Assembly (NCBI GenBank): GCA_905214105.1
Contig: CAJMKK010000001.1
Coordinates: 1 to 64,000 of the forward strand
DNA from: an uncultured bacterium
Lineage (GTDB): Bacteria; Actinomycetota; Coriobacteriia; Coriobacteriales; Coriobacteriaceae
DNA: 64,000 bases
Direction of reading: 5' to 3'
Shown here piece by piece: positions 29,944-63,248 of this stretch. How positions within the stretch are numbered: position 1 is the first letter of the stretch; the number at the start of each line of letters is the position of its first letter. The notes under the pieces were generated by a model. The model had not been told where the DNA came from. It saw only the letters and a list, made by a program, of their open reading frames with translations, and made no database searches. The position numbers were made by a program, and so were the translations under genes.

Positions 29944-29954
29944 GCGCTGACTGT

Positions 29955-30329: not shown

Positions 30330-30353
30330 CGCACAAGCTGCCATAGCTGGCAA

Positions 30354-30385: not shown

Positions 30386-30404
30386 ATTTATGCCGAGGGG
30401 CTTC

Positions 30405-32463: not shown

Positions 32464-32481
32464 GCGTGCCCCCGTCTGCGA

Positions 32482-33240: not shown

Positions 33241-33419
33241 AGGTCTAATACTTTTCCGAGAAGTGAACGAGCTAAATCGGACCCCCGAAGCATCGACACT
33301 TTAAGCACGCCGTTTCCTGCGATTTCGATACTGGAATCCTGCGATTTTGCCGACGAAAAATGCGGATGCTTCAGGGGTCCAAAAACAAGCGTTCACTTCT
33401 CGGGAAAACTATTAGACCT
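33241..33419. repeat. MITE-like element with terminal inverted repeats
   Basis: The ends form near-perfect inverted repeats of about 30 bp: AGGTCTAATACTTTTCCGAG at the left and the matching complement ending ATTAGACCT at 33419, with one substitution and one indel. A second inner pair, GACCCCCGAAGCAT and ATGCTTCAGGGGTC, extends the pairing. No open frame is inside. The intergenic region 33025-33540 otherwise holds promoters for the flanking divergent genes and no gene. Confidence 0.75.
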
Positions 33420-33506
33420 GGATAGCGGGGGATGGTGGGCCGGTAGCAAGCCGGTGGCAGAAATGGGATAAGCAGGGCACGCCGATTATATGGAATCAAA
33501 AGTGTG

Positions 33507-37778: not shown

Positions 37779-37816
37779 CAATCACGCAGAACTATCGACA
37801 AGAAAGGGGCCGTGCA

Positions 37817-41775: not shown

Positions 41776-42070
41776 GGGTCCGTATGGAAAGCCCGAGTTG
41801 AAAGCGATTGTTGTTAAGACGTTGCTTAAGCGTCCTCGTTATCCGGAGACATTTTTAGTATTTGAGGGTCGTTATTAATTATTAGGAATGATTTTCGAAG
41901 AGTATTGGCTTTATTTGGCTTAACGATGGATATGGGGGTGCGTGCCATGCTTCGCTGCCGATTCTTGGGTTGAGGAAAGGGATATTGATGTGCGCAACGT
42001 GTGTTGTGTCCCAGCTAGCGTCTAAACTAAAATCCTTGAGTCTGAACATGGACGGCGCATCGGAGGTTTG

Positions 42071-42904: not shown

Positions 42905-43028
42905 GAAATAACTCTTACTTGGTTCATGTGCTGGAAATGATGATATAGAAGTAGATGGAATAACGTCCCCTAGTCCACCTTTAATCTCGTGTTTCCCTTT
43001 CCTTCGTCCACTTTTCTCCTAATAGCCG

Positions 43029-43862: not shown

Positions 43863-44063
43863 TGTTGTCTCTATTTCAATCGATGCCTGCAGAGAAATAT
43901 CGATGGGTCGGTTTGCGTTGATTGTAGCTCGCCAATGAATAAAAACAAGGATGCATTCGGTCGCCTTCGGCTCTGCTCGAGGTTGCCAATCAAGGTGATT
44001 CAAGTTTGCTGCGAGTGCGCCCTAGCAGTCATTACGTCGTATACGAGTTGTGCTAATCTATTT

Positions 44064-44103: not shown

Positions 44104-44179
44104 CGTTAAATAGCGGCACTTTCAATCTCTTGGTCATATCGACTGAGTAAAATGTTGATTGTTCAGATTGGAGGCGGCT

Positions 44180-45364
44180 ATGGTTCAACCGAAAATCCAG
44201 GGAAATCACCGAGCATATCCAAAGGAGCTGGCGATATATGTCGAGCGTATCCTATTGGAGGAAACTGATGCTGGGCTTGGCAAAGGGTTGAGCGTTTCTG
44301 ACATAATGGCGGAGCTTAAAGCCCGTTATGGCTATGAAGTTAAGCGCGACACAGTGCAGGGCGTATTGAACGCACTTGTTGATTCTGGATCAAAAAAGCC
44401 TTCGCTCTGCAATAATGCGGGCGCCAGTCCGTTAACCGAGATGAATAGTATCGATCTCGACAACAGTTGTCTGAATCCGTTCTACACGGTGATTGCAAGT
44501 CGATTGGCTTGTAAGGGCGAGCGACTGACGAGTGGTGAGGGGAATCCTGCTCCTAAAAATGCGAAGCGCCTGTACAGCATAGAGCGTCAAATTGATAGTA
44601 CGCAAATTGAGCATCTGTGCCGTCTCATTGAAGCCTCTACGGGCGTGGGAGGAGCCGACGCACTCGAGCATGCAGTTCTTCGCCTACTGTGCGGCGAAGA
44701 AAGGCGGCAGATTGAAGATCGTTTGGCTCAAGAAAACGCTCTGCTCAAAAGCGGCAGAATTGCAAATATGGAAGCAACGCTTGCAAATTTGAGGTTATTG
44801 GAAAAGGCCATTAGCCAAAGGCAGAGAGTCCGCTTTCGAACTTCTGATAAGGGGCGATTGCATAGTCATACGCCATATCATCTATGCATGCACGATGGCT
44901 ACTACTACCTGTTTGTGGGCCACAAGGGTGCCGCGAGGTCTTTTGACGCAATTCGAGTTGATAGCCTGTGGGATATAACCATTGCCGGACCAGTGGACGA
45001 TGCAAAAGGTCATTTTGAGGCGATGGCCGAAGAGGCAAAAAGGTTTTCTCGTGCTGGCGTGAACAGGATGTTTAGTGACGACATCGTTACGGTTCGCGTA
45101 AGGTGTCATAACCAAGCAAAGGAGAAGTATCTTCTAGCCGAATTTGCCGGAAACGATGGGTTTCGGCGCGAGACACAGGACGGGCATCCAAATCCAGAGT
45201 ATTCGTTTATGGCGTCGTATGATGGCATGAAAACATGGGCAATGAAGTGGCTCGATGTGTTTGAGATACTTCAACCAAAGAAATTACGCGATGACGTTGT
45301 GGACATCATTGGACATAAATGTATCTATGTGAGTACGAGGGCTGATTCAAATGACACCTGCTGA
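44180..45364 (+). CDS. WYL-domain regulator with N-terminal winged helix
   Basis: The 394-residue protein starts with an HTH-like region (LSVSDIMAELKARYGYEVKRDTVQGVLNALVDSG) and has a WYL domain (ISQRQRVRFRTSDKGRLHSHTPYHLCMHDGYYYLFVGHKGAARSFDAIRVDSLWDITIAG), with a WYL-extension domain after it. WYL proteins often regulate defence genes, sensing nucleic acid or nucleotide ligands. ATG at 44180 follows GGAGG. Its last 14 bases overlap the start of the helicase gene, so the two are coupled and probably act together. Confidence 0.85.
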   Translation: MVQPKIQGNHRAYPKELAIYVERILLEETDAGLGKGLSVSDIMAELKARYGYEVKRDTVQGVLNALVDSGSKKPSLCNNAGASPLTEMNSIDLDNSCLNPFYTVIASRLACKGERLTSGEGNPAPKNAKRLYSIERQIDSTQIEHLCRLIEASTGVGGADALEHAVLRLLCGEERRQIEDRLAQENALLKSGRIANMEATLANLRLLEKAISQRQRVRFRTSDKGRLHSHTPYHLCMHDGYYYLFVGHKGAARSFDAIRVDSLWDITIAGPVDDAKGHFEAMAEEAKRFSRAGVNRMFSDDIVTVRVRCHNQAKEKYLLAEFAGNDGFRRETQDGHPNPEYSFMASYDGMKTWAMKWLDVFEILQPKKLRDDVVDIIGHKCIYVSTRADSNDTC

Positions 45365-48300
45365 GAAAAAGCAAGCAATTGGCGATGCGTTAGATTACTG
45401 GTATTTGCTTGATTTTTTGAGCCAAGGCGACCAACCCGAAGAGAAAAAGGACCCGCCTAGGCCCAGAAAAGGAATGCTCGATGACTGCTTTGTTCCAAAG
45501 GGGCGGGATGGTCAGGATTTCCAGTCGCCTTTTGAAGAAGCGAGAGAACGTGCGGATAGTGTCACAAACGGCGAAAACTGGCCGATCTCAACGATTTATT
45601 GTCATCTGGGCTCCGTTCCGCGCGAAGCGGTCATGACATATCTTGCAGAAAAACCGGGGAATGAAATCGAAAAAGAGGATGAGTGCATGACGGTTGCACT
45701 ATTAGGTGTGAGTCCTGATGGTCAATTTGTCAGCTTCGAGTTGTCCTCCTTATTTTGGTGGTTGAAGAGGAACGTCGGGAATAGCCTAAATGCCATCGGT
45801 AGCTTTGATAAAGAGCAGAACGATATTTGCAAGAAGCTCAATCAAGAACTCGTTGGAACAAAGCTGACATATGGTGTCATTAGGGGCATTGTCAATAGGT
45901 GCGTCCAGCCAATGATTGAGGGGATAGCCGGCTGCCTTCCCGACGGTGGCGGGGCTGAACGTATTAGCGAGTGGTGTTCAAGGCTGCTTGTCGAATATAG
46001 GGCAATGAAGCCAAAGGACAACGGGGACGATGCGTGTCCAACGTTCGACCAATCCCTCTGTCACTCATTTTTCGCAAAAGATATTTCCCGGATAAATGAG
46101 CAGTACAAGTCAGGGTCATTCGGCGATCTGGACAAGGGGCCGCTGCCCCTTGTCGCCGCTTACCTTAAAGGCGGCTTGGGGGAGGATCCTGCCTGCGAAA
46201 AGATTGATCTTCTGGGCGGCGAAGACGATGATGATCTGACTGCCCGTGCAAATTTCTTTTCTGAGGTGTTGGGAGCTGGCACTACACCTATTGGTCGCTG
46301 GCCGAGTAAATACTCCTTGAGCTTGATGCAGCAAGTGGCGGTAAATCTTGCGGTTGGTCGTGGCAGTTCGACGCGCAAATACCCCGCAAACGACGTTATG
46401 TCGGTTAACGGTCCTCCGGGCACGGGAAAAACAACCCTGCTCAAGGATATCGTTGCGGCTAACGTTGTCGAAAAAGCCCGTCTGCTGTGTGAATATGACA
46501 AGCCCGATGACGCCTTCGAAGAGGTGGAACTGAGCAAACGATACCTCCAGTTCGCAAAGAATCCTTACCGTTTTAAGGAGGGCGAAACTGGAGACAAGAT
46601 TAAAAAACTCAGCATCTTGGTCTGCTCGACAAACAATGCAGCAGTTGAGAATATCGCCAAAGAACTTCCTGATGGGAAGGCCTTTTTGGAGGGTATTGAT
46701 GAATCTGAGAAAAAGGAGTTTCTAGAGTCAGATTTGTCCAACATTGTTTGGGGAAAGAAAAACGAGCAGAAACCGGTGGATGATCTCTATTTCTCTTCGG
46801 CGCTCGTTGACAATAAAGGCAATCTTCGCGACCCTGCACATCCTGGGCTTATGGTTGCGGCATGTCTGGGAAACCGTAGGAATATTAATAACTTCAGAGA
46901 TTGCGAGCTTTCTTCGCTGCAGTTTAACGGCGGGCTGGGAAAGGGCGGACGGTTTTCTGAGGCGAAGAAGCTGTTTCTTGCTCAATACAAAAAGGTAACC
47001 GAGCGATTCAACAGAATGGAGGAGCAAGCAGCCGGGGAGCGCGAACTTCTGAACAGCAAGAAGCATTTGTCCCAATTAAATTGTAGGTGTCAAAAGGACG
47101 AGCGAGAGATAGTTGAAGAGCTGACAACCGAAACGGTATGCCTGTCTCGTCCTTTTGAAGGCAGTGCCGCAGGTGATGTCCGGAAATATCTTGATGACAT
47201 TGCGAAGGATACTGCTGATTATGAGGCGAGAAGGAATAGGCTGGAAGCAGAATTGCGCGATGCGGAAGAAAAGGCCAGTGGGCTGATCGGGAGCATCTTC
47301 AATAGGGGCCGTTTGTCCGATAGCCGCGAGAAGCTCGATTCCTTTATGCTGCAAACCGCACCGGACCAGAGGCTTGTTGCGCTGCGTACGAAATTCGAGA
47401 ACAAATACGAAAAACTAGAGAATGAAAAGAAGGAACTATCCTCTTTGTGGGTGAAGATCCAAGGTCAAAAGCGCAACAGAGTTGATGGTGCTGAATCTGT
47501 TGAGACGATTAATGGGCATTTTGTCGAGTGCATCTCAAAGGGGGATAGCGAAAGCCGAAAAAAGACTCATCTATATAATCCATCCGATGACCCTGACCTA
47601 AAAAAGGACCGCAACCTGCTATTTCTCTATGCATTGCAGGTGACACGCGAGTTCATCCTTGAATCAAAATGTATGCGGAATAACATTGCGCTTCTACGAA
47701 CATACTGGGGAGCCAAAGACAAGGGCGTCGATTCTGGTAAAAAGGAGTTAATAGAGTTCACGCAAGCCGATAGAAGGAGTATGGCCCCTGCGCTCTTTCA
47801 GACGCTCAGTTTGCTTACCCCAGTGATTTCTTCCACGTTTGCGTCGATTGGCCGCATGTTTGAGGACATTCAGATTGGGAAAGACCCTTTATTTGGCCTG
47901 CTGATAATAGATGAGGCGGGACAGGCGGTGCCGTATGCTGCTTTGGGCGCCCTTGCTCGCAGTCGACGTGCAATGATTGTTGGTGACCCCTCTCAGATTG
48001 AGCCTGTGATCACAGGGGATGTTAAGGAGCTCCGCGCTGTCCTCGGTAAAAAAGTATTACTACCTTATAAGGGGGATATGGCTTCGGTCCAGCGACTTGC
48101 CGACGCCGTTAACCCCTATGGCCACCTGCGCAGCAACGGCGAGGATGATCAATGGATTGGCTGCCCGCTTGTGGTTCACCGTCGCTGCATATCACCCATG
48201 TTCGATATCTCAAATGAGATCTCGTATCAGGGCTCCATGCTTAACGAGACGGCTAGCCCAAAAAAGGATCTCGCTGACAGCTTTTATCTAAAGTCCTCAC

Positions 48301-49973
48301 AGTGGATCAATGTTACGGGATTTGAACGTGGCAATCGCGATCATTATGTTGATGCCCAGGGCGATAGAGTGTTCGAGATTGTCAAGGACGCTTTTGATAA
48401 GGCCGTAGCTACGGCTGAGAAAAAAGCTTGCGAATCGGGCAAGTCCGAGGGAATTGTTATTCCAAGTCTCTATATTATTTCTCCGTTTAAAACCGTTGTC
48501 AGGGGGCTTCAGGACCGGCTGTTAAGTGCTAGGACTGAAGTGGCTGACAAAGATGCATGGCAATATTTCGCAAAGCATAATATTGGTACGGTTCATACGT
48601 TCCAAGGTAAAGAAGCCCATCAAGTGGTATTTGTCTTGGGGTGTGATACAAGGCGCAGTTGTGAGGGCGCAATCAAGTTTGTAAACCCAAATATCGTGAA
48701 TGTTGCGGCAAGCCGAGCCAAGTATCGCCTCTACGTAATTGCCGACTATGCAGCGTGGAAGATTAACGAGAACGTTGCAACGATGAAGCGCATTCTCGAT
48801 ACGGCATGGGTTGTGCATTGGGAAAATTACCAGAAAACCGGCGCTATTGAGGAACTCAATGCAGCCAAGGATATGCTGCCGCGAGGAGAATCTCTTCCAA
48901 GGGAGACAGCTGGCGCGGACGAGGAACATATCAATGAAGACGACAAGAAAGATGACAATAAAGATGTTTGGTGCCCTGATGTAAACACCGATTCCTATTT
49001 GGACAACGTGGGCGAAGCGTTCAAAAGCTTTAATCTGGATGCAGAAGACTGTCGAATCATAGGCTTTTCTTCGCGCGAAGCTCTTCAAAGCGCATTCGCT
49101 GATTGCGAGTGCGACCAAAATGGCAAAAATAGGGTGCTTGAGAATATCGAGCAGGGGCTTCTTCTGTGCAAGATATTTGGCATTGGCAGTGTTGGCACCG
49201 ATAGCGATTCAGATTGCGCATTTTGCCTGCTAATGTTCTGCCGTGCGGCGGAGAGATACTTGCGTTTGAAATTGCTGCCGACCTTGAAGGCCATTGCTCC
49301 CGATTATGTTGTTGCAAGAAAGCCACTCAAGGAGCTTGAGGGCCTTAACCTCGGTCAATACAAAAGGTTAATTGAAAAAAAGAGTGAGCTACTGGCATCC
49401 TCTGTTCGAGTTGAAAATGCTGAATTGACGCAGGCGTCAAAGGGGGACTGGTGGAGGACACTCGGCGAAACACTGGGTCGATTTACTGAATTTCGTAATA
49501 GCGCCTGTCACACCGACCGAAAAGAGATGGTTAGCGCGGGCGAGGTCTGGCTGGCGCTTCGATGCCTTTTCGTTGCTTTTCAGCTTGATGAATCTGGTCA
49601 TAAGAGTGTGGAAATCATGCGAGAGGGTATTGCTTACGAAGCGGCTTTTGCGGGGGCCGAGCGTTTGCCGGTCTGTTACTCAATGGATCAGGCAAGCGCT
49701 AAGGGCTATGCCTCGATTTCGAAAATACTGAGAGAGGGTGGCTCAGGGATTAGGGCTGAAGATGCCAACACTATTCTGATGGAACAAGGGTATCTGCGAC
49801 TTTTCGATGAAGGCGAAGAGAGCGTACAACAATGCAAAGTTCCGTCCGCTAAAGGCTTGGGGCTGGGCGCAGTCTTTGTGTGCGGAGAAAAGAACGGCGA
49901 CGTATTCTACTACGCGCAGTATCCCCTGGCGAAAGCCAAAGAGATATGCGACCTATTTGAATCTAAGTCGTAA
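45351..49973 (+). CDS. Upf1-like SF1 helicase with C-terminal HEPN-type motif
   Basis: The 1540-residue protein has an SF1 helicase core of the Upf1/DNA2 type: Walker A GPPGTGKT at 354-361, a coiled-coil insertion of about 300 residues, Walker B LLIIDEAGQ (Asp854-Glu855), GDPSQIEPV, and motifs V/VI in GTVHTFQGKEAHQVVFVLG and NVAASRAKYRLYV. After an acidic linker (NEDDKKDDNKD) the C-terminal domain contains FRNSACH; Arg1382 and His1387 fit the RxxxxH signature of HEPN ribonucleases. The N-terminal 300 residues are not recognised. The overlap with a WYL regulator suggests a defence system whose helicase detects foreign nucleic acid and whose HEPN part cleaves RNA. The HEPN call rests on the motif and helical context. 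Confidence 0.82.
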   Translation: MTPAEKKQAIGDALDYWYLLDFLSQGDQPEEKKDPPRPRKGMLDDCFVPKGRDGQDFQSPFEEARERADSVTNGENWPISTIYCHLGSVPREAVMTYLAEKPGNEIEKEDECMTVALLGVSPDGQFVSFELSSLFWWLKRNVGNSLNAIGSFDKEQNDICKKLNQELVGTKLTYGVIRGIVNRCVQPMIEGIAGCLPDGGGAERISEWCSRLLVEYRAMKPKDNGDDACPTFDQSLCHSFFAKDISRINEQYKSGSFGDLDKGPLPLVAAYLKGGLGEDPACEKIDLLGGEDDDDLTARANFFSEVLGAGTTPIGRWPSKYSLSLMQQVAVNLAVGRGSSTRKYPANDVMSVNGPPGTGKTTLLKDIVAANVVEKARLLCEYDKPDDAFEEVELSKRYLQFAKNPYRFKEGETGDKIKKLSILVCSTNNAAVENIAKELPDGKAFLEGIDESEKKEFLESDLSNIVWGKKNEQKPVDDLYFSSALVDNKGNLRDPAHPGLMVAACLGNRRNINNFRDCELSSLQFNGGLGKGGRFSEAKKLFLAQYKKVTERFNRMEEQAAGERELLNSKKHLSQLNCRCQKDEREIVEELTTETVCLSRPFEGSAAGDVRKYLDDIAKDTADYEARRNRLEAELRDAEEKASGLIGSIFNRGRLSDSREKLDSFMLQTAPDQRLVALRTKFENKYEKLENEKKELSSLWVKIQGQKRNRVDGAESVETINGHFVECISKGDSESRKKTHLYNPSDDPDLKKDRNLLFLYALQVTREFILESKCMRNNIALLRTYWGAKDKGVDSGKKELIEFTQADRRSMAPALFQTLSLLTPVISSTFASIGRMFEDIQIGKDPLFGLLIIDEAGQAVPYAALGALARSRRAMIVGDPSQIEPVITGDVKELRAVLGKKVLLPYKGDMASVQRLADAVNPYGHLRSNGEDDQWIGCPLVVHRRCISPMFDISNEISYQGSMLNETASPKKDLADSFYLKSSQWINVTGFERGNRDHYVDAQGDRVFEIVKDAFDKAVATAEKKACESGKSEGIVIPSLYIISPFKTVVRGLQDRLLSARTEVADKDAWQYFAKHNIGTVHTFQGKEAHQVVFVLGCDTRRSCEGAIKFVNPNIVNVAASRAKYRLYVIADYAAWKINENVATMKRILDTAWVVHWENYQKTGAIEELNAAKDMLPRGESLPRETAGADEEHINEDDKKDDNKDVWCPDVNTDSYLDNVGEAFKSFNLDAEDCRIIGFSSREALQSAFADCECDQNGKNRVLENIEQGLLLCKIFGIGSVGTDSDSDCAFCLLMFCRAAERYLRLKLLPTLKAIAPDYVVARKPLKELEGLNLGQYKRLIEKKSELLASSVRVENAELTQASKGDWWRTLGETLGRFTEFRNSACHTDRKEMVSAGEVWLALRCLFVAFQLDESGHKSVEIMREGIAYEAAFAGAERLPVCYSMDQASAKGYASISKILREGGSGIRAEDANTILMEQGYLRLFDEGEESVQQCKVPSAKGLGLGAVFVCGEKNGDVFYYAQYPLAKAKEICDLFESKS

Positions 49974-52125: not shown

Positions 52126-52196
52126 CCGCCGCGCTGAATGGCGCGCCTGATTGACAGGCCGTCGGAAAAGTCCGGACAGTCTGCCAATCTCGGTCG

Positions 52197-53840
52197 CTAC
52201 ATCGTTCCCTTGCTCGCAGCGTAATGTTCCGCCTGCTTAAGGGCGTCCTCGTAGGCGCGCTGCTTTGCTTCGTACTCTAGCGCGTAGCGCTCCTGCTCCG
52301 CTCGCCCGGGAACAGGCACGGTCATGCTTCGCAGGTCCATTGGGGCAAGTTGCACAAGCGCGTCTCCGTGCGAGGTGTCCGCCAGTTTCTTCTGCCCCTC
52401 ATCGGACGACAGGTATGCCAGGACAAACTGGGCAAGCAGCTCGTCCTCAAAGGTAGCGCAGAACATGGCGTCGCAGGGGACAATGCTCTCAAACAAAAGA
52501 CCGCGCTCCACGGGGCGCTCAGAACCGACAGAAAAGTGGCCTGGCGTGATGAGGGCAAGCTTGAATGGAGGCCCGACGCGTGATATGAGAAGGCTCGCCT
52601 CGCGGGCGTCGATCGGTTTGGCCTTCCGAAAATCTTCGTAGTCTACACGGCTTACATCGTAGATATCTGTATCGGGGACACGCTCAAGTACATCTTCTGC
52701 GGCAATGATTGCGCCATCATGAAGATGCTTTAGCGACAGGTAGTAGCAGTCGTGCTGTTGGTAACTGTCTGTCGGATCTGATTCGGGCAGTTTGGTTACA
52801 ACGCTGCGGGCGGTGCCGCGGTAGATTGGCGCTAGCGACCCAAGGGGGATGAACATTCTCTCGTCGAACGATCCGCTCTTTGTATTGGGTAATAGGGGAT
52901 ATATGCCGTTGCCCTGATCCTCGAGCCGATGCCAATAGACTGGATTCTTTTGATCGCCGTAGGCTCGGTCGACGGAATCGAGGAGCTGGTGCAGAATCTC
53001 ATCGGTCATTTGCTTGTCGTCAAAGCTCCTGCCGTCAAAAAGGAAATACGGATCATTGGGCTCGCCGTCGCCAATAAAGAGCAGCGCGCGACCCTCGGCC
53101 TTTTTGGCAATGGTGTTGGGAAGAAGCACAATGCTCTTTAGCAGGCCGAGGTCACAAAGAAGGCGACGTCCATCTACGGCTCGCGCCAGATTGAACAGAC
53201 GGTCCGAAATCTGAATGACGGCCGTGGCATGGGACTGAGAGCAGGCAATGGATGCCGCAAGAAAGATGTAGTACCACTCAGTGACCGAAAGCAGATCGGG
53301 GATGCCTGCGCTGCGTTGCAGCTGCTTCGAGCGCGTTCTGAGGAAATCCAGGACTCGCGCATTTGCCGCATCGATAGATGCCGGGAATTGGGATAGCGGT
53401 CGTAGCTCGGGGGGCCTGCAGTAAATGAGTGCTGATTCGTACGTGTGAGAGGCTGCGTCCTGCTCGTAGTCGTATAAAAAGATATTCTCCTCGATGGCAG
53501 TAAACGTCGACGTCGGGACTTTGACTCGGTTTTTGCAAACGCAAGCGGGCACATAATCCCATTCGTCGGTTGCTTCGTTGTAAACGCGGTCCTCAAACTC
53601 AAACGAGGCGGCCGAAGGTCGCTTGAGGTCAATCCCCAAAACAGACCACGAGGGGCCATCGACGTGCTCGCTCGAAAACTCAAAATCGCGACAGCACAGT
53701 TCAATGAGCCTTTTCGTTCTCGACGAAGGCTGATATTTCTCGACCATATGAGACACAAGATCCGATAGATATCGGCTCATATATGGCTTGAGATCTTCGT
53801 TTAAGCGAAGAGTTGCAAATTCTGCTTTAGTTTTGAGCAT
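52197..53840 (-). CDS. Second methylase/specificity-like protein lacking catalytic motif
   Basis: The 547-residue protein has the same plan as that at 35140-36573: a degenerate methylase-like half (EWYYIFLAASIACSQSHATAVIQISDRLFNL, LLCDLGLLKSIVLLP), a target-recognition-like half (IPLGSLAPIYRGTARSVV, YYLSLKHLHDGAIIAAED, FKLALITPGHFSVG) and a C-terminal helix (ALEYEAKQRAYEDALKQAEHYAA). LLDSVDRAYG lies between the halves. Catalytic FxGxG and NPP[FY] motifs are absent. ATG at 53840 follows AGGAGGTG; the frame is open from 53900. The pair may provide DNA recognition for nearby genes. Confidence 0.6.
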   Translation of the reverse strand: MLKTKAEFATLRLNEDLKPYMSRYLSDLVSHMVEKYQPSSRTKRLIELCCRDFEFSSEHVDGPSWSVLGIDLKRPSAASFEFEDRVYNEATDEWDYVPACVCKNRVKVPTSTFTAIEENIFLYDYEQDAASHTYESALIYCRPPELRPLSQFPASIDAANARVLDFLRTRSKQLQRSAGIPDLLSVTEWYYIFLAASIACSQSHATAVIQISDRLFNLARAVDGRRLLCDLGLLKSIVLLPNTIAKKAEGRALLFIGDGEPNDPYFLFDGRSFDDKQMTDEILHQLLDSVDRAYGDQKNPVYWHRLEDQGNGIYPLLPNTKSGSFDERMFIPLGSLAPIYRGTARSVVTKLPESDPTDSYQQHDCYYLSLKHLHDGAIIAAEDVLERVPDTDIYDVSRVDYEDFRKAKPIDAREASLLISRVGPPFKLALITPGHFSVGSERPVERGLLFESIVPCDAMFCATFEDELLAQFVLAYLSSDEGQKKLADTSHGDALVQLAPMDLRSMTVPVPGRAEQERYALEYEAKQRAYEDALKQAEHYAASKGTM

Positions 53841-54108
53841 GCGCACCTCCTGCATATTCCCTATATTGCGCGGTTCGCTGACTGGCCCGTCGCGGCTCAA
53901 TTGCCTTCAGTCTACAAGAAGAGCAGTTGCGGCGTTTTTCAGGCGGGGAACTCAAATGAAAAAGAAAAAATCGAATGGTGCGTATGAGGCCGTACGCATT
54001 GGGTAATATTTCGCTAGATACTAACACTAAGAGATTTGCATATCTCCTAGTTGTATCAAGCTACAGTGGATAAACCAACTAGTTGTTTCAGCAACGAAAG
54101 GACAGCTA

Positions 54109-54846
54109 ATGAACGGATACGACACGTATAGGATCGAGCCAGACGCTCTCAAGAAGTCAACAACAGTGAATATTTTAGGCATGATTCTGCAAACCCTCTT
54201 TGCGGTTGTGCTGTACGTTGTCGCCGTCGACATGATGTGCTTGCTGACGACGTGGCTCGGCGGCTTTATGTTCGAGATTGGCGAGGGCAACACGGTGATT
54301 CCGCTCCATTCGTGGCGCCTGGTGGCGTTTAGGGCGTACTGGGTTGTGCTGGGCGTGGCGGTCGTTGCGGCGCTTGCCCACAAATGGATTGTGCTGTTAA
54401 CGGGAGAGCGCGAATCCGACATGCGCGAGCTGCTCGGTGCAATTGAGGGCGCGGGCGCATTTGCATCCGTCGTCTGCGCGATCGTCTGTTTGCTGGGCTG
54501 TGCCGCCGCATTTGATTGGTGGGCTGGCGTTACCGGAAAGATGGCTTCGGATTCCCGCGCCAATGATTATCTGCTTTGGGCTGTTGTCTTAACAGTCGGA
54601 ACGATTGTCGAGTGGCGAATTGTCGAAGGAGTTCTCAAGGCTTTATTCCCTCATGAGTGCTTGTTCCACGGGCTTCGCTTTGCATCTGCCTGCGTGGTTA
54701 CTCCTCTGCTCGCGCTTGTGCCCACAGCGCTGGTCATCGTCGTGTGCGCGGTGGTGGTAGGCCTTTTTGCCGGGATTGTGTTCGCATCGCTTGCGATTCC
54801 CGTGGTTATCACGGTTATTGACATTGCCATCGCTATGAGTCGCTAA
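54109..54846 (+). CDS. Polytopic membrane protein, unknown
   Basis: The 245-residue protein has about six helices (ILGMILQTLFAVVLYVVAVDMMCLL, AYWVVLGVAVVAALA, FASVVCAIVCLLGCAAAF, and a C-terminal run of three). It has no recognised motif. AAAGGACAG precedes the ATG. It is followed 44 bases later by the 68-residue membrane protein and then the ClpX-like gene, all on the plus strand, suggesting one operon of membrane and proteolysis-related genes. Confidence 0.7.
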   Translation: MNGYDTYRIEPDALKKSTTVNILGMILQTLFAVVLYVVAVDMMCLLTTWLGGFMFEIGEGNTVIPLHSWRLVAFRAYWVVLGVAVVAALAHKWIVLLTGERESDMRELLGAIEGAGAFASVVCAIVCLLGCAAAFDWWAGVTGKMASDSRANDYLLWAVVLTVGTIVEWRIVEGVLKALFPHECLFHGLRFASACVVTPLLALVPTALVIVVCAVVVGLFAGIVFASLAIPVVITVIDIAIAMSR

Positions 54847-54890
54847 CCCACAACGCAATCCAAATATCTCGCATAAAGAAAGGAACGACC

Positions 54891-55097
54891 ATGTCGGTAT
54901 TCTCTAACGCTCAAAAGCTTCTGCTGCTTGCCGTACTTACCGCTCTTATGGCTGGTGCCCTGATGTACGAAGTGTTGCATCCCACACTGTTTCCGCTGCT
55001 CAAGCAGGGCATTTTGCAGCTGCTCTACCACATTCCGGTCTTTACCCAGCCGGGCAACGTGATCTATCTGGAGTCGGCGACATCGCTGGCACTGTAG
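54891..55097 (+). CDS. Small membrane protein
   Basis: The 68-residue protein has one hydrophobic helix (LLLLAVLTALMAGALMYEVL) and a second weaker one. AAAGAAAGGA precedes the ATG. It lies between a polytopic membrane protein and the ClpX-like gene. Function unknown. Confidence 0.7.
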   Translation: MSVFSNAQKLLLLAVLTALMAGALMYEVLHPTLFPLLKQGILQLLYHIPVFTQPGNVIYLESATSLAL

Positions 55098-55157
55098 TGG
55101 TTTAAGGGCTCGGCCCACATCGAAGGAAAGAAAACCAATATGGAAAGGAAGGCGCCC

Positions 55158-56927
55158 ATGACTCAGAAGCAGTATCGAAACATCGATCGCTACCAGGACT
55201 TGCTCAATCGAATTGCGCCTACGCGTCTGGTGGAGCAGACGCGTCAGAGTGTTATTGGCCACGAAGGAAGCTTGGAGGCCTTTGTGACGGCGCTGAGCTT
55301 TGAGGTCAACCGCTGCGTGATGTTGGCACGCGGCGCCGACCCGCGCGACGTTCTTTCGCCCGCTGCCATTTTGGTGATGGGTTCCACCGGCACGGGAAAA
55401 ACCCACACCATCAAGGCCGTGGCAGATGCCGCGGGGCTCAAACTGTTCGTGTTCGATGTCTCCACCATGACGGGCGAGGGCTGGCGCGGTGCCAGCATGA
55501 GCAACTGCCTGTCGCAGGTCGCGGACTATCAGGCTGCCAATCCCGGCGAAATTTGCTTGGTGCTCTTTGACGAGTTTGACAAGGCGGTTCGTGCCGAGCC
55601 CGATGGGGGCGAAGTTGCATCGAGCTTTAGTCCATCGCAGTCGTTCCTTAAGCTCTTGGAAGGCGGGGAGATGCCGTTTGAATGTGATACCTCCAAGAGT
55701 GCGGCTATTAAGACGCTCAACCTCGATCAGGTTGTTTGCATTTTGGGCGGCGCCTTTATGGGCTTGGATGCTCTGGTGCGCAAGCGCCTGAGTGACAAGT
55801 CTGGCACCACGGTCGGCTTCGGATCCTCGTATGCCGCCGTGCGCACCGCCGCAAAATCGGCAAACGAGCTGCGAGACAGTGCGACCATCGAGGATGTTGA
55901 GACTTGGGGTATTATGTCCGAGCTGTGCGGGCGCATTGGCTCGGTGATTAACTTTAACGCCTTGAGCGTGGACGATCTGGTCCAGATTGCGTATGAACAG
56001 TACCTGCCCAAGTACAACAACATGATGGGAAATGGCGCCAAGATGGAGCTGATGGCAGATGCTGCTCGCCTTGCGGCGAAGCGCGCGGTTAAGGAAGGTG
56101 CCGGCGCGCGCGGCATGCTCCGTCAGCTGCGTCCCCTTATGATGTACGCCTGGAGGGACATGCGGGAAGATACCTATATTTCCCGTGCGACCTTGGTCGT
56201 GAGCGACGGGGAACTTGCGGTTGCGTACGAGCGCTCTCATGAGCCGCGGGGCTTTTTGCAGGAAGAGATGGGGGAGAATTCGCCCTTTCTGAACGGGAGG
56301 GAGATTGAAGCCCTGACGCTGGTGAACAACTGGATGGAGCATGAGGACGAGGACGAGCATAAGCCGTATCAGCCTGAGTTTGCTTGGCTGGCGGATTTGG
56401 TGGACGGCTCGGCGCTCGACAAGATCGTGCAGGGCGGCAAGGCATTCGATCTTGCTGGGGTGTTGTTGCGCGGCGTTCCGTTTGATGGGCCGGAGCGCAT
56501 TGCCGCCCACGAGCTGCTTAAGGCGTGCGCCTGCTACAACGACGTGCTCTATGCCGATCAGGACAAGTATCGCAACCTTGCCCAGGTGCTTATGCTCACC
56601 AAATTGGTGTACAAAAAATCGCCCGATTGCTTGCTGAGCCCGCTCGATGTGGTTATGAACGGCACGACTACGGGCAACGGTTTTCAGGGTCTTGGCGAGT
56701 GGGTTGATGCCGTGAGCAGGTCCGAAAAGCCTTCGTTGGAAAAGTGGCAGTACCTGGCGGCCGGGGAGGCCCTGCGGATTTACGACCACTTTAGCAAGCG
56801 TCCCGACCAGGTAAAGGAGCTTGCCGCCGATGTGTCCCTGATGCGTGTCGCCCTCGCGGTGATCGACGCTGAGGAGCGCGAGGCGTTGGAATGCGATCTT
56901 GAGAAGCTGCTCGCTTCGTGCGAGTAG
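55158..56927 (+). CDS. ClpX-like AAA+ unfoldase with ClpP-docking loop
   Basis: The 589-residue protein follows ClpX across the AAA+ module: VIGHEGSLEAF, Walker A GSTGTGKT (75-82), FDVSTMTGEGWRG, Walker B LVLFDEFDKA (Asp138-Glu139), ICILGGAFMGLD-type sensor region, and GARG (316-319) with the sensor-2 Arg318. It retains VGFG (219-222) at the position of the IGF loop by which ClpX docks to ClpP. The N-terminal zinc domain of ClpX is missing and about 220 extra residues follow the module. ATG at 55158 has AAGGAAGG before it; ATG at 55140 is an alternative. A ClpP paralogue lies at 39416-40018, a plausible partner. Confidence 0.85.
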   Translation: MTQKQYRNIDRYQDLLNRIAPTRLVEQTRQSVIGHEGSLEAFVTALSFEVNRCVMLARGADPRDVLSPAAILVMGSTGTGKTHTIKAVADAAGLKLFVFDVSTMTGEGWRGASMSNCLSQVADYQAANPGEICLVLFDEFDKAVRAEPDGGEVASSFSPSQSFLKLLEGGEMPFECDTSKSAAIKTLNLDQVVCILGGAFMGLDALVRKRLSDKSGTTVGFGSSYAAVRTAAKSANELRDSATIEDVETWGIMSELCGRIGSVINFNALSVDDLVQIAYEQYLPKYNNMMGNGAKMELMADAARLAAKRAVKEGAGARGMLRQLRPLMMYAWRDMREDTYISRATLVVSDGELAVAYERSHEPRGFLQEEMGENSPFLNGREIEALTLVNNWMEHEDEDEHKPYQPEFAWLADLVDGSALDKIVQGGKAFDLAGVLLRGVPFDGPERIAAHELLKACACYNDVLYADQDKYRNLAQVLMLTKLVYKKSPDCLLSPLDVVMNGTTTGNGFQGLGEWVDAVSRSEKPSLEKWQYLAAGEALRIYDHFSKRPDQVKELAADVSLMRVALAVIDAEEREALECDLEKLLASCE

Positions 56928-57056
56928 TCGCCGACTGCTTCTCTTTCCTTTCTTTTCTCAAGCGGCATAGATGCCATCGCTCAGCCGCCCTGCGTGAGTT
57001 TTTGTCCGCACGGGATGGTATTCAACACATGCAACAACTAAATCGGAGGTTTGACC

Positions 57057-60000
57057 ATGGCTACGTGGGAGCTGAACTGTCAATCGAATCCGTCGTCTGC
57101 GGGCGACAAGGAGCTTGCTCCCTATCTTGCGCGCCAAAAGGCGATGCGCGAGTTTTTTGAGCGTGCGCTGTTTGTCCCCAAGGATCAGGACAACAACGGC
57201 CTGTACTTTTTGGGCGCCACAACGGGCTCGGGTAAAAACTACACGGCCGAGCAGGTCACGGCAGACCTGATTGCCGGCGGCTGGGATGAGTCGGGCTGTT
57301 TTAATAAATGTCCCGGTCGCCGTACTCTGGTGTTTGTGGTTCCGGGTAAGGACAACCGCGACAACTATGTTGCAAACGTGCGCGAATTGTTGGTTGAGCA
57401 GGGCATGAGTGACGATGATGCGGAGCGCATGGTGTTCGATCTTCCGCGAGCGGGCGAGAACATCAAAAACTGGATCGACGCCACGTTTGACAAGGGCAGC
57501 GTAAGGCCGCGCGATATTCCATGCCCCTTTGGAGCAAAGGACGAGGCCGTTCTTCGCGATATTGCGCACGCGTGGCGCGGTGTGATGGAGGTCGCCGATG
57601 ACCTTTTGGGCCTTTTGGACAAGAAGGAGCGTCTGGGAAGCGTTGTCGACCGCCTGACTCCAGGGCTGTGGGATAAGCTGGCGTTGGCAGACGCGAGCTT
57701 GCGTCGAGCGGTGAGCCGTGGACGCCAGAGCATCACGCGTGGCATTGAGGAGATTCCCCGGATTTGGCCCTCGGCATTGCTTAACGATAAGCGCGCGCCG
57801 CATGTAATTGCATGCACGCCGCAAAAGCTCGTCAATAGAATCGATACGGTGACAGAAGCGGGCGTTGTGTTCTTTAACGCAGCGGTTGCCGACGAATGCC
57901 TGTTTATCTTTGACGAGATCGACCATGCGAAGGCCGATATGCTGTCGATGCTGGCGGCGGGACATATGAAATTTCAGCCCGACGAGATGCTGCGTATTCT
58001 TGACCGTCATTTTAATGGCGGCGTGGTTGATCCTCTGCTGCTGGGAAATCGGGACCAGTGGATGGCGGTCTATACGCATGCCTCGACCTCGGGCGAACAC
58101 GAGGGGTCAAACGCGGCAACGGGCAAGGTTTCGCGCGCAAGTGTGGAGACGGCTGCCGAAGAGATCGCCAAGGGTGCCAAGCGTATTCAAAAGATGATCG
58201 CTGCGTGTATTCAGGATATGGAGCTGCAGCAGCCTTTTGCCCTGTCTGACAAGGCGAAAGACGAGCAGCTTGCCGGTCGTCATCTGTTTGGCAGCGACGA
58301 TATTTCGGTGGGCGATGGCCTGTCGAATCCCTTGCGCTATGAGCTCGATACTCGCCGCAACCGCAACATGATTACGTCTTGTGGGACGGACGAGCAGCAG
58401 ACCGTCAATAAGGCGGTGCGCCGTGCGCGCGGCCTTGTCAGGATGGTGGTGGGCCATCTTGCCCGCTGTGCCACGCTTATGGACAAGCTGTACTACGGCA
58501 GCATTTCGTACAAGGACGATCTTTCGCGCAAGAATATCATCGATGCCCTGGGCATTAGGAACGACCAGACCAACGAGAAATACTTCTGGAATTCGTTGAT
58601 GCTGGCGCTGTTCTTTAAGGACCGCAAGAACGATGAAATCGATGCCGTTGACGACTCGATGTATGCGCGTGGTGTTGACTACCTGGTGATGGAAACCACC
58701 ATCGACCATATGTTTACCACGTACCTGACTAATCACGGCATTGAGCGCATGCCCGAGGCGTATCTGGCATCCATTGCCGCCAAGGCTCCCTGTGTGTGCA
58801 TGAGCGCCACCTGGAATGCACCGACTATTAAGAACTTTGACCTGGATTACCTGGACGAAGTGCATGGCGTGGTTCGTAAAGATGCCTGGATTGGCGAGCT
58901 CAACCAGGAGATCGTGCGGCAGACCAGGCTGTTCAACAAGCAGGCGGCAACGATGTACGCCGTCGACGTCGTTTGGGTTGACGAGTCCAAGAAGCTTGCC
59001 GGCATGGCGGCCGTGGCCGGCGGCGCCTATGGCGGCGGTATCGTGTCGCCCGACGAGGTGTACGAGCATGTGATGGGATTCTTTGACCAGATTGGCGTGA
59101 GCGAAGGGCTTGCGGCGTGCCTGCGCCGAAAGATTGCCGACAGGGTGACCACGAGCGATGCCGAAAGCATCGAGTTTGAACTAAAGCGTCTGAGCAAGAC
59201 GCTCGTTGCCGTGAGCGCCTGGGCGCGTGGCGTGGCGCGCAGTGAGCAGCAGGCGGGAGCCATCTTTACGACACGACACATGGGAAACCATGGCGACTTT
59301 AATAGTTTGGCGCTGGATCTTGCCCGCGAAATCGTTGCCGAACTGGTGATTAGGAACGTTAAGCATCCCGAGGCTTCGTACGAGAAGTCGCTCGAGGAGG
59401 CAAAGGATATGGTGCCGTGCTTTAACGCTGCGGGATGGGAGGAAGGTTGGCGCGGCGCTCAGGAACGTCTGAAGGACGGAGAGCCGACCCTGATGTTTAT
59501 CAACCTTGCCGCTGGTGGCTTTTCCAAGAACCTTAAATACGAGGTGCCGGAGAGCCTGCGCAACACGGTGCGCCAGGTCGATTGTGGTTTTGGCAACGAT
59601 GGGCGACATCCCAAGATGGACCTCGATTTTCTGTACGTGGAGTCGCCCACGAGCCGCTTGGCTTGGGGAGTCGATATGAGCTCAAAGAAGTTTGACCAGC
59701 AGGCGCTGCTTGGCGTGGTCGAACAGGAGGAGCTCGTGACGCGCGGTGAGATTCCGTTTATCCAGAAGCGCCATCGTGTGCGCACGGTACTGGCGGGCGC
59801 CGGCGGAAAACTGCCGGTGCGCGACACCCTCTCGTACCAGGTCGAAGGCGCTCGCATCGTGGCGCAGGCGGTGGGCCGCTTGATGCGTACGAGCGTAAAG
59901 ATGCTCCATGTGCAGGTAATGCTCGATCGCGAAATCGCCGCCGATTGCGATTTTTCGTTCTTGCACGATTTGCCGATGGGCTACGAGCTGGAGCAGGTGG

Positions 60001-60989
60001 TTGGCGCCTGTGCGGCCGTCAACAATCACATGGCGGACAAGAAGCAGCACGCTGCCAGTAAGCAGCAGAACCTTGCTGCCTTTAGGAACAACCTGGCGAA
60101 AGAGAAGCACGAAAAGCTGGCGTGGAAGGTTGCCTCGCTCGATGCGCGCGAGGAAGATCTGGCCGCTTTCGATGACGAGCGCAATTTTTATCTGCATCAT
60201 TTTTGCCTGCCGTGGGAGGAGCTTGCGAGCTATCCTGCACGCAAAAGCACCGCACTGCACATGCCGTTTGCCGCGAGTGGCTATGCGTATGCGCAGGGCG
60301 GAGCGTGTAAGGTGCCGCATTTTGAATTTCCCAGCTACGATGGCGAGCCTGTTGAGCAGATTGCCGCTCGCCTGGAGGAATGTTGCCGCTACGACAAGGG
60401 ATTAAAGGGCGCGACGGTTCGTCAGATAAGCCAAGCGGCGGCGCGCGTACCCGAGCTGCTTTCGATTCGCGAGGTGCGCGAGCGCTGGTCACGCGACGGG
60501 GTGCCCGCGACGCTGCAGCCGGCGGCGACGGCACATATGACACCCTATATGTTTCAGGCGGTATACCTGGGAGAACTGGGAGAGTCTGCCGGTAGGGCCA
60601 TCTTCGAGGCGTATTACGACGGTCGCTATTCGCTTACTCGTGGCGATGCAGCCCATGCCGAGACGGGCGGCGATTTTGAGGTGCTCGATGCCGCTGGCAA
60701 CAAGACCGGCGTGTGGATCGATTTTAAGCACTATCGCATCGGCGCCTACGAGGCCTACAGGCGCTCCGGCGGCGAGACTACGGACGCAGAGCGCTTTAAG
60801 GCAAAGGCTCAAAAAGTCGGGGCGAAGCGGCTGCTGATCGTCAATGTTTTGGCTGACGAGGCGGCGCTGGAGCTCCGCCAAAAGCCAATCGATGACGAGG
60901 GGATGGTGTTCTCCTTCCCCTATATGGCAACTGATGGAGCAATCAACCTGGAGATGATGGAGGCGATCGGCCGTGCAATCGAAGCATAA
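57057..60989 (+). CDS. Large SF2-type helicase with possible C-terminal PD-(D/E)XK nuclease
   Basis: The 1310-residue protein has helicase motifs: Walker A-like GATTGSGKN (53-61, with Asn replacing the usual Thr/Ser), DECLFIFDEIDHAKADM (Asp286-Glu287), CVCMSATWN, and a motif VI QAVGRLMR (937-944). Unlike Cas3 there is no HD domain. Near the C-terminus FEVLDAAGNKTGVWIDFKHY (Asp1206, Glu1208, Asp1222, Lys1224) fits a restriction-like nuclease core. ATG at 57057 follows CGGAGG. The stop is 17 bases inside the next gene, implying coupling. The combination recalls the helicase and nuclease of pPIWI-RE systems or other DNA-processing defence systems; that link is inference. Confidence 0.75.
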   Translation: MATWELNCQSNPSSAGDKELAPYLARQKAMREFFERALFVPKDQDNNGLYFLGATTGSGKNYTAEQVTADLIAGGWDESGCFNKCPGRRTLVFVVPGKDNRDNYVANVRELLVEQGMSDDDAERMVFDLPRAGENIKNWIDATFDKGSVRPRDIPCPFGAKDEAVLRDIAHAWRGVMEVADDLLGLLDKKERLGSVVDRLTPGLWDKLALADASLRRAVSRGRQSITRGIEEIPRIWPSALLNDKRAPHVIACTPQKLVNRIDTVTEAGVVFFNAAVADECLFIFDEIDHAKADMLSMLAAGHMKFQPDEMLRILDRHFNGGVVDPLLLGNRDQWMAVYTHASTSGEHEGSNAATGKVSRASVETAAEEIAKGAKRIQKMIAACIQDMELQQPFALSDKAKDEQLAGRHLFGSDDISVGDGLSNPLRYELDTRRNRNMITSCGTDEQQTVNKAVRRARGLVRMVVGHLARCATLMDKLYYGSISYKDDLSRKNIIDALGIRNDQTNEKYFWNSLMLALFFKDRKNDEIDAVDDSMYARGVDYLVMETTIDHMFTTYLTNHGIERMPEAYLASIAAKAPCVCMSATWNAPTIKNFDLDYLDEVHGVVRKDAWIGELNQEIVRQTRLFNKQAATMYAVDVVWVDESKKLAGMAAVAGGAYGGGIVSPDEVYEHVMGFFDQIGVSEGLAACLRRKIADRVTTSDAESIEFELKRLSKTLVAVSAWARGVARSEQQAGAIFTTRHMGNHGDFNSLALDLAREIVAELVIRNVKHPEASYEKSLEEAKDMVPCFNAAGWEEGWRGAQERLKDGEPTLMFINLAAGGFSKNLKYEVPESLRNTVRQVDCGFGNDGRHPKMDLDFLYVESPTSRLAWGVDMSSKKFDQQALLGVVEQEELVTRGEIPFIQKRHRVRTVLAGAGGKLPVRDTLSYQVEGARIVAQAVGRLMRTSVKMLHVQVMLDREIAADCDFSFLHDLPMGYELEQVVGACAAVNNHMADKKQHAASKQQNLAAFRNNLAKEKHEKLAWKVASLDAREEDLAAFDDERNFYLHHFCLPWEELASYPARKSTALHMPFAASGYAYAQGGACKVPHFEFPSYDGEPVEQIAARLEECCRYDKGLKGATVRQISQAAARVPELLSIREVRERWSRDGVPATLQPAATAHMTPYMFQAVYLGELGESAGRAIFEAYYDGRYSLTRGDAAHAETGGDFEVLDAAGNKTGVWIDFKHYRIGAYEAYRRSGGETTDAERFKAKAQKVGAKRLLIVNVLADEAALELRQKPIDDEGMVFSFPYMATDGAINLEMMEAIGRAIEA

Positions 60990-62868
60990 CCAGCCGTGTG
61001 GTCTGGGAGACATCGCTGTGTCCGAGCTCGTATTGCAGCTCGATGCCGCGGCTGCCGAGAAGCGCTACTCGGTCTTTTGGTGCAACGTCGGCGATGCGGA
61101 CAAGCATGCCGTGGCAAACTTTATGGCCGATGTGTGCCAGACAGGTAAGGTCGTCGCGCTTACGCAGCTCGAGGACAACCGCGTCTTTCTGATGGTCAAG
61201 GCGGGCGCGCAGACGGGTGACCTGAGCGCTTCGCTCGACCATGAGCAAATGGTTCCGATTAAAACTCATTGGAACGAGCTGGATGATTACATCGCATTGC
61301 GTCTGCTGTTCAACTCGTGCTCGCAATTTGAGGGGATCGAGGACGAGATTCCCAATGATACGGGGCACTTGTATGTTGTAAGCGCCAAGGGTGCTCGCCG
61401 CGACGCCATTGAGGAAGCTGGAACGGGCCCTGCCAAGATTGAGACGGTTGAGACCGTTATCAACGAGGATTGCACCTTCGAACTTAAGATCCGAACGTTT
61501 ACCAAGCGACGGGTGCTCATCGGTCGTGCGGCAGGCGACAAGAAGGAGCTCGAGAAGATTAACAGCCAGGTTGGTTACAGGCTGTCGCCCGTGGCTTCGG
61601 TGGTGCTGGCTCACGGACAACGTGACGAGTACATCCTGCGCCGCGCCAAGGGCGATAAGCCGTCCAAGCGCCGTGATCTTACGTTTTCGGCCCAAGCGGA
61701 AAAGGTCGCCTATACCAAGAAGGGCATCCTGTACCGAGAGCTGCAGATCCTCGAGCGCCGGTACGGCGACTTTGCCCGGGTGTCGCTCAGGGAGTATCCG
61801 CGCAAGAGCTTCTACGAGGTTTTGAAAAGCGAGCGATATGCCCGCGTGGTTGCGGAGCGCGCGGTGGGACAGCGGGTTGTGGTGTCGTTTGCGCACAAAG
61901 GGCTTGCTGGGGTGGCGCGCCAGTTGGTCGATCGACTCAACGATTCCTCGTGGGGCGTGTGCGCGTCGTATGGCGGGAAGGATGTGGATCCGCTGGCGTG
62001 GAATATCGTCATGGTGCCCAACGAGGTCGCCGAGAACGATGGCTATGCCCTGCACGCTGGCGTGGTTGAGCAGCATGTGACGCCGGACGTGTGCGAGCCG
62101 CTGTTTAAGGCGGCGTCGAATGCAAAGGTGTGCGGCGCACAGGAGGGAATCCTGGGCGCCATGCTCAAAGAGCTGTTGGTTAAGCAGGATGTTGCCGACG
62201 GCCGGGTGAAGGCGTTTGACCTTGGCTCTTTTGGCGTTGGGTCGGTGACGGTCTGTGGCGTGGTCAATGTCCCGCGCAAGGAGAAGGATAAGGTTGAGCT
62301 GGATGAACGCCTCGCAACGCTAACGATTGGTGTCGACGGGACCATGGACTACACCTCGCATCCCATCGAGGACGGTCCTGTGGACGAGATGGAGCTTGAA
62401 CTGCTGACGTCGGACGGCAAACTCGACAAGGATGCCTACATCTTTGACGTGCGGGCAGGCGAACGATCTATGTTGGCACGCGTGCGGGACACGGGCTTGA
62501 CGACCTTCTCCAACACTTTTGTGACCTTGGTGCGCGATTACCAGCTTACGGGTAAGGCGGGTCGTAAGAAGGAGTTTTTCGAGAGCTACAACTCGCCCTA
62601 TTACGGTATTGGAACGTTCGAACGTGCAGGGTTGACCTGCTACTTTGTGGGCGTCAACAACGGCACCAAGGAGGATCTGGCAACGTCGATTCATGTGCGC
62701 TCGGTCGAGGTGCTCGAAGGCGACGATCTGTCCGAGCTGCTGGTTCAGCTGGTCAATGAGGGGCTTTCGCGCCACGGGGCTCCTTCCAGGTGGCCGATTC
62801 CGGTGAAGTATCTCAACGAATATGCCGCGCGTGAGGGCGCGGCGGGGGAGTGTGGTATTTGCTCGTGA
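60973..62868 (+). CDS. Unknown 631-residue protein with MID/PIWI-like features
   Basis: I cannot assign it firmly. Several stretches recall the MID and PIWI halves of prokaryotic Argonaute-like proteins: NIVMVPNE (344-351) then YALHAG and EQHVTP (366-371), ILGAMLKELLVKQDV (about 392-406), a YIFDVRAGERSML strand, and near the C-terminus LVNEGLSRHGAP followed by WPIPVKYLNEYA (607-618), which is like the C-terminal segment of PIWI proteins. A DEDX catalytic set is not evident, so it would be inactive if a PIWI protein. GTG at 60973 overlaps the helicase gene by 17 bases. The coupling indicates a joint function. Confidence 0.5.
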   Translation: MQSKHNQPCGLGDIAVSELVLQLDAAAAEKRYSVFWCNVGDADKHAVANFMADVCQTGKVVALTQLEDNRVFLMVKAGAQTGDLSASLDHEQMVPIKTHWNELDDYIALRLLFNSCSQFEGIEDEIPNDTGHLYVVSAKGARRDAIEEAGTGPAKIETVETVINEDCTFELKIRTFTKRRVLIGRAAGDKKELEKINSQVGYRLSPVASVVLAHGQRDEYILRRAKGDKPSKRRDLTFSAQAEKVAYTKKGILYRELQILERRYGDFARVSLREYPRKSFYEVLKSERYARVVAERAVGQRVVVSFAHKGLAGVARQLVDRLNDSSWGVCASYGGKDVDPLAWNIVMVPNEVAENDGYALHAGVVEQHVTPDVCEPLFKAASNAKVCGAQEGILGAMLKELLVKQDVADGRVKAFDLGSFGVGSVTVCGVVNVPRKEKDKVELDERLATLTIGVDGTMDYTSHPIEDGPVDEMELELLTSDGKLDKDAYIFDVRAGERSMLARVRDTGLTTFSNTFVTLVRDYQLTGKAGRKKEFFESYNSPYYGIGTFERAGLTCYFVGVNNGTKEDLATSIHVRSVEVLEGDDLSELLVQLVNEGLSRHGAPSRWPIPVKYLNEYAAREGAAGECGICS

Positions 62869-63017: not shown

Positions 63018-63248
63018 ATGAACACCAGCAGTTTCTCATTTAACAACGATAATAGTGGTTACATTAATCTCGAGACTATCTTTGGTTGCACTGTCGGTTC
63101 TCGCGCAGAGAACGGGCTTGTATTTCTAGATGAAGAGAAGCCATGCGGCGAAGAACTCGAGTATTTAGATGAGATTGAGCGCGAGCGGAACTATGAGTTT
63201 GGTTTTTGCGGAGATCAGTTTCATCACGATTCAATTCGCTCAATTTAA
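63018..63248 (+). CDS. Small acidic hypothetical protein
   Basis: The 76-residue acidic protein (SFNNDNSGYINLETIFG, EEKPCGEELEYLDEIERERNYEFGFCGDQFHHDS) is not recognised. ATG at 63018 is preferred, but ATG at 62958 is in frame and neither has a strong ribosome site. It lies alone behind its own promoter. Confidence 0.5.
   Translation: MNTSSFSFNNDNSGYINLETIFGCTVGSRAENGLVFLDEEKPCGEELEYLDEIERERNYEFGFCGDQFHHDSIRSI

Follow-up and report, generated by a model that had tools for sequence, protein, structure and literature searches.

A probable divergent branch of the DdmDE plasmid-defense system in an accessory genomic island of a Coriobacteriaceae genome

Introduction

Which kind of defense system is encoded by a helicase gene that overlaps the gene of a PIWI-like protein in an uncultured member of the Coriobacteriaceae (Actinomycetota; Coriobacteriia)? 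The two genes occupy positions 57057-62868 of a 64,000-nucleotide stretch (contig CAJMKK010000001.1, positions 1 to 64,000 of the forward strand, assembly GCA_905214105.1), hereafter the window, whose host is probably a gut Collinsella. A sequence-only reading of this DNA described a 1310-residue helicase overlapping a 631-residue gene by 17 bases and proposed that the pair was kin to pPIWI-RE, a type of system in which a PIWI-type protein is combined with helicase and nuclease functions. We conclude that the two genes are very probably a divergent DdmDE plasmid-defense system and, as such, a new branch of a known system. In its published description, DdmD is a superfamily 2 (SF2) helicase with a PD-(D/E)XK nuclease and DdmE is a DNA-guided Argonaute without catalytic activity that brings DdmD to plasmids; the published architecture of DdmDE is a helicase-nuclease with an Argonaute-like partner (PMC12409362). 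At one point in another paper (PMC12904381), the names DdmD and DdmE have apparently been exchanged.

The two overlapping genes

The genes and the motifs of their products are as follows:

57057-60989, forward strand: ddmD, SF2 helicase with a predicted C-terminal PD-(D/E)XK nuclease (1310 amino acids, ATG start; PADLOC and PDB matches)
57222-57239, forward strand: helicase motif I (Walker A), TGSGKN, residues 56-61
57912-57923, forward strand: helicase motif II, DEID, residues 286-289
58803-58811, forward strand: helicase motif III, SAT, residues 583-585
59865-59888, forward strand: helicase motif VI, QAVGRLMR, residues 937-944
60582-60728, forward strand: predicted nuclease core, E1176, D1211 and D1222-F-K1224, from the alignment of eight DdmDs
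60973-62868, forward strand: ddmE, predicted Argonaute-like protein (631 amino acids, GTG start; profile and fold)
61792-62865, forward strand: MID-PIWI half of DdmE, about residues 274-631

The overlap (60973-60989) and the coordinates given earlier were reproduced, and the four strings quoted from the 631-residue protein, NIVMVPNE and EQHVTP among them, are all present. GGAGG stands at 57045-57049, 7 nucleotides 5' of the ddmD ATG (57057), and again at 60959-60963, 9 nucleotides 5' of the ddmE GTG (60973); an alternative TTG start at 57051 would lengthen DdmD by two residues, to 1312. For comparison we used three Collinsella genomes with ddmDE (G205, G107 and G244) and an Eggerthellaceae genome (G355, locus L012). 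The G107 orthologs are 81% (DdmD) and 82% (DdmE) identical to the window proteins, with ratios of nonsynonymous to synonymous substitution rates (dN/dS) of 0.154 and 0.159, respectively. Given these low ratios and the 122 proteins homologous to DdmE, both frames are real genes, and both are under purifying selection.

Family membership of DdmD and DdmE

The helicase identifies itself as DdmD even when searched alone. As a single sequence it was matched by the PADLOC DdmD model (E 2.5e-6) and retrieved six chain sequences from the PDB (best E 2.2e-5), named either DdmD or 'Helicase/UvrB N-terminal domain-containing protein', the latter being the DdmD of DdmDE entries; the best stretch of the PDB alignment, DdmD residues 812-1268, runs through the C-terminal nuclease. 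With an eight-row profile (alignment A7, the window protein plus seven DdmDs), the match to DdmD in the PDB extended over almost the whole length at E 1.4e-131. Pfam at E 1 returned just a weak Syja_N match (0.14), and an NCBIfam scan of the protein gave no match. Motifs II, III and VI are standard, and the C-terminus carries the residues predicted for a PD-(D/E)XK nuclease, with E1176, D1211, D1222 and K1224 invariant in all eight aligned DdmDs. The same alignment revealed Collinsella-specific insertions. The IDFK string noted in the sequence-only reading lies at residues 1221-1224, and the fusion of nuclease to helicase that it had suggested is a feature common to DdmD.

The 631-amino-acid protein is, by its modeled fold and profile matches, an Argonaute-like DdmE. 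A 13-row DdmE profile matched the solved DdmE in the PDB over nearly its full length (E 3.8e-35). The proposed Foldseek comparison of the predicted structure returned DdmE as the first match (E 6e-22); the predicted fold is of the Argonaute MID/PIWI type and aligns with PIWI-containing proteins, with 13-18% identity in the DdmE structural alignments, which bears out the MID/PIWI-like character first read from the letters. A 608-amino-acid Eggerthellaceae protein was also retrieved by the window DdmE in a tblastn search over four loci (E 3e-22) and recovered in its own genome by an eight-row profile (E 7.9e-9); this protein matches DdmE in PADLOC (2.5e-7) and in the PDB (9e-8).

The closest published parallels are the DdmDE systems of Vibrio cholerae (PDB 8u3k, 9bgk, 9ezy) and Lactobacillus casei (9ixm, 9iw3), which have the same gene order (helicase-nuclease, then Argonaute-like protein), are homologous over nearly the full length, share the predicted DdmE fold and keep the nuclease D...D-x-K. 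The window differs from them in its shorter DdmE (631 versus 687-715 amino acids), the very low identity, the Asn that ends Walker A, the Collinsella-specific insertions in DdmD and an island that adds a ClpX-like gene and ClpP.

Several observations weigh against the DdmDE assignment. The single DdmE sequence matched no DdmE model in PADLOC and nothing in the PDB, the assignment depending on its relatives; its identity to five DdmEs outside the Collinsella-type group is 16-23% (alignment A6), and single-sequence tblastn against canonical loci was weak (7e-10 to 0.002), reaching 0.058 in L011 and finding nothing in L016. The PADLOC DdmD model detected just 2 of 396 genomes, and the three from Collinsella were not among them. 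Within the window DdmD itself, Asn replaces the Thr or Ser of GK(T/S) in Walker A, and motif V reads GFSKNLK instead of G-x-G-x-NLQ, as it does in the four Collinsella loci (the window and three genomes). DdmDE identity outside the Collinsella branch is about 16-24%, and the PADLOC DdmE model matched just 2 of 13 DdmE homologs.

Alternative readings of the pair

That the locus is a pPIWI-RE system with fused nuclease and helicase is scarcely credible. The likeness is in the parts, as a PIWI-type protein adjoins a helicase with a motif of restriction-endonuclease type, but profiles match DdmD and DdmE over nearly the whole length and the DdmE fold agrees with them. Furthermore, Pfam and PADLOC gave no pPIWI-RE match for the window pair and 13 DdmE homologs, although the coverage of these libraries was unchecked and the absence is no proof. 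We rejected the pPIWI-RE identity because both proteins match DdmDE; of the guide-dependent defense variant proposed with it, guided defense remains likely, whereas the fusion is not new. It is also very improbable that the pair belongs to the ApsAB type, the sister class that likewise pairs a helicase-nuclease with an Argonaute-like protein. PMC11096173 places ApsA and DdmD in one continuum of helicase-nucleases, and the ApsAB it describes in Escherichia coli ST38 resembles the window in its helicase/PD-(D/E)XK protein and Argonaute-like partner, its island location, its motif VI (QAVGR) and its nuclease D...DxK. The same text, however, reports ApsB to be devoid of the conserved PIWI RNase H fold and of sequence similarity to DdmE, a published description that sets it apart from the window partner, which can be aligned to both DdmE and PIWI proteins.

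A further possibility accepts DdmDE but supposes that its DdmD is no normal helicase, the Walker A Asn and the changed motif V having turned it into a guided nuclease or a slow clamp. Both changes are conserved, GSGKN (as TGSGKN) and GFSKNLK being present in all four Collinsella loci while motifs II, III and VI and the nuclease residues are retained; the last Walker A position is Thr or Ser in all seven non-Collinsella DdmDs compared. Yet the Walker A Lys is also retained, dN/dS is low and Asn at this position may still allow ATP hydrolysis, and we regard this scenario as rather unlikely. The motor activity of DdmD may nevertheless differ, because Walker A and motif V are both altered.

Proposed mechanism

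The divergent DdmDE reading is thus the one we favor, and the characterized systems suggest how it may operate. By analogy with them, DdmE would load a DNA guide, pair with plasmid DNA and recruit DdmD, which would load onto the displaced strand, move along it, unwind the DNA and cut it. We infer from this analogy the guide type, plasmid target, recruitment and activity of the window pair; established here are the family membership of both proteins, the predicted DdmE fold, the nuclease residues and most helicase motifs, the overlap, the purifying selection and the island. Plasmids, rather than phages, are the first target to consider.

Distribution

A genome scan with the DdmD profile identified ten distinct loci, in Eggerthellaceae, Aquimarina, Draconibacterium, Carnobacterium, two Firmicutes/Bacillota, Nonlabens (partial) and three Collinsella. 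Counting also L011, from genome G250, DdmE lies 3' of DdmD in 10 of 11 loci, which supports the DdmDE assignment. Locus L011 (G250:C1:2094000-2113000) is another ddmDE in the class, with a DdmD of 1325 amino acids (Walker A TGERKT) and a DdmE of 732. The exception is L021, a Bacillota locus in which two DdmE queries gave no tblastn hit; two frames follow its DdmD (8535-10640, 701 codons; 10625-12604, 659 codons), and the partner of this DdmD may belong to a different type. Within the genus Collinsella, DdmE was present in 3 of 43 genomes, and the DdmD orthologs are 81 to 99.8% identical to that of the window; these orthologs, together with one source name, Collinsella aerofaciens (P0009), point to Collinsella as the host. 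A DdmD profile search of viral contigs found no relative among 600 pattern matches, and plasmid records contained one partial match to the window DdmD (Nostoc) and three to the Eggerthellaceae DdmD, one of them covering at least 80%. No paper pairing DdmDE with Collinsella or with ClpX was found in a literature search outside which most subscription papers lay.

The accessory island

The ddmDE genes are carried in an accessory island with these further features:

33450-64000, no strand: accessory genomic island holding ddmDE; left end at about 33209-33449, right end beyond the window
37730-39301, forward strand: VirD4-like conjugation coupling protein (NCBIfam NF045973, 327.9 bits, cut-off 250; Pfam PF02534, E 1.4e-49)
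39416-40018, forward strand: ClpP-like protease (Pfam PF00574, E 1.1e-49)
54109-54846, forward strand: protein of hydrophobic, membrane-type character (by eye) adjacent to the AAA+ gene, no Pfam match
55158-56927, forward strand: ClpX-like AAA+ gene, possible accessory partner (589 amino acids; longer start at 55140)

To the left, positions 15979-33449 are collinear with genome G143 except for 21230-22894 and about 23173-28751. In G143, G001 and G109, 42-83 bp separate the left flank (ending at 33449, 33208 and 33208, respectively) from the right flank, as defined from G205 and G107, with a piece of about 0.6-1.5 kb inside it unmatched; the G244 stretch gave no right-flank match. Since the flanks are nearly joined in G143, G001 and G109, the island is absent from these genomes. 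Its content comprises AbiEi/AbiEii, the VirD4 coupling protein, ClpP, a cargo stretch that varies between genomes, and ddmDE. The VirD4 protein occurs at 89% identity or more in 4 of 43 genomes of the genus, including all three with ddmDE; in the fourth (G153) the locus is cut at a contig edge and gave no DdmE match. Neither a relaxase nor VirB4 was identified among the proteins scanned.

Other genes of the window deserve brief mention. At 42068-44003, in the variable cargo, the gene of a D12-class adenine methyltransferase (Pfam E 7e-34) and that of an EcoRV-type restriction endonuclease (E 4e-56, 43029-44003, reverse strand) face each other and form a putative EcoRV-like restriction-modification pair. 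A WYL-domain protein followed by a 1540-amino-acid superfamily 1 helicase (44159-49973; PADLOC MkoC, E 9e-61) is possibly a Mokosh-related defense. The reverse-strand gene at 52197-53900 encodes a 567-amino-acid protein with weak C-terminal matches to type I specificity subunits and no Pfam match; its identity in G205 is about 41% (N-terminal part) and 60%, and that of its neighbors 89-96%. Directly 3' of ddmE, 63018-63248 encodes a small acidic protein (76 amino acids; 16 Asp plus Glu, 5 Lys plus Arg) that recurs (46-100%) in each of the three Collinsella ddmDE genomes compared. Outside the island, about 23173-28751 carries a tyrosine integrase (23318-24595) and more genes up to a tRNA-Leu (28753-28837). 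This segment is missing in G143. The two matches that flank it share 58 bases there, the pattern expected of a duplicated attachment site, and the segment appears to be a second, separate insertion.

The ClpX-like neighbor

The AAA+ gene stands on the same strand as ddmD and 129 bp ahead of it, with a homolog directly 5' of ddmD in G205 (96%) and, across a gap of 178 bp, in the Eggerthellaceae genome G355 (30%, E 2e-55). The NCBIfam ClpX model matched its product at E 5.5e-32 but at 111.1 bits, below the equivalog cut-off of 359. Like ClpX, it has an AAA+ core. The DdmDE-linked proteins retain both Walker motifs (A and B), GAR, an aromatic pore loop and an xGF loop (VGF in the window). The xGF loop resembles the ClpP-docking loop of ClpX. 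Unlike ClpX, the neighbor has no N-terminal zinc-binding part (by eye) and continues for about 250 residues past the part that matches ClpX (residues 22-337). An AlphaFold2 model of the protein was poor (mean confidence score, pLDDT, 51.9). Beside the gene, the hydrophobic protein at 54109-54846 is found only in G205 (89%) among the four genomes compared.

Could such a protein be a third component of the system? A dedicated ClpX-like unfoldase would, with ClpP, remove plasmid-maintenance proteins or recycle DdmDE complexes. Its position 5' of ddmD in lineages whose DdmDs are 23% identical (window and Eggerthellaceae), its ClpX-like motifs, including a loop missing in all six related AAA+ proteins of family f3, and a ClpP gene in the same island would fit this idea; in addition, the longest contig is equal in size to that of a DdmE cluster in 4 of 16 AAA+ protein clusters. 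Nonetheless, G107 and G244 keep ddmDE but have lost window positions 52170-56788; the flanking matches are 2 bp apart, and of the AAA+ gene only the final 45 codons remain ahead of ddmD. This remnant indicates a deletion there, and we rejected a late insertion in the window lineage. ClpP, which is 98.5% identical in G205, G107 and G244, persists in islands without the AAA+ gene, and its role as a dedicated partner is thereby weakened. Six other ddmD loci (L011, L013-L016, L021) had no AAA+ homolog at tblastn E 0.01, with short upstream flanks of 3.7-6.4 kb in four (L011, L013, L015, L021). The eleven best AAA+ relatives after the two linked to DdmDE had no DdmD or DdmE within 11.6-16 kb (tblastn E 1e-3), and the xGF loop also occurs in three of these relatives (L048-L050). 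We expected the DdmDE-linked proteins to form one clade, but a tree of 21 of 22 rows (without the partial L035, and with L051 trimmed by its first 170 residues) did not group them (12% of bootstraps). A terminator-like hairpin also overlaps the end of the AAA+ gene, in a scan that performed near chance. At E 1e-25 the AAA+ profile had matches in 366 of 396 genomes of a class-wide search, most of them presumably ClpX itself.

We therefore view the AAA+ protein, given its patchy linkage, shared loop and unresolving tree, as an accessory candidate and not as part of the system; its link to ddmDE is only suggestive, and a three-part system is doubtful. We think it improbable that this DdmDE variant recruits proteolysis, with a ClpX-like unfoldase, possibly with the island ClpP, stripping plasmid replication proteins or resetting DdmDE while the altered motifs I and V mark a different motor. 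As a separate observation, dN/dS between the window and G107 is 0.025 for ClpP, whose gene lies beside that of VirD4, the lowest of five genes (genome pairs vary).

Significance

Two features of the divergent DdmDE locus stand out, the Asn that ends Walker A and the ClpX-like neighbor with its intermittent presence. The latter is a testable accessory candidate, and the natural GSGKN Walker A of a conserved branch offers a test of whether DdmD needs a normal motor. The locus brings gut Coriobacteriia into the range of DdmDE and is so divergent that the PADLOC DdmE model fails; as this model matches just 2 of 13 homologs, surveys based on it probably undercount DdmDE. Furthermore, DdmDE shares its island with a conjugation coupling protein, which suggests that the system may serve mobile DNA against rival plasmids.

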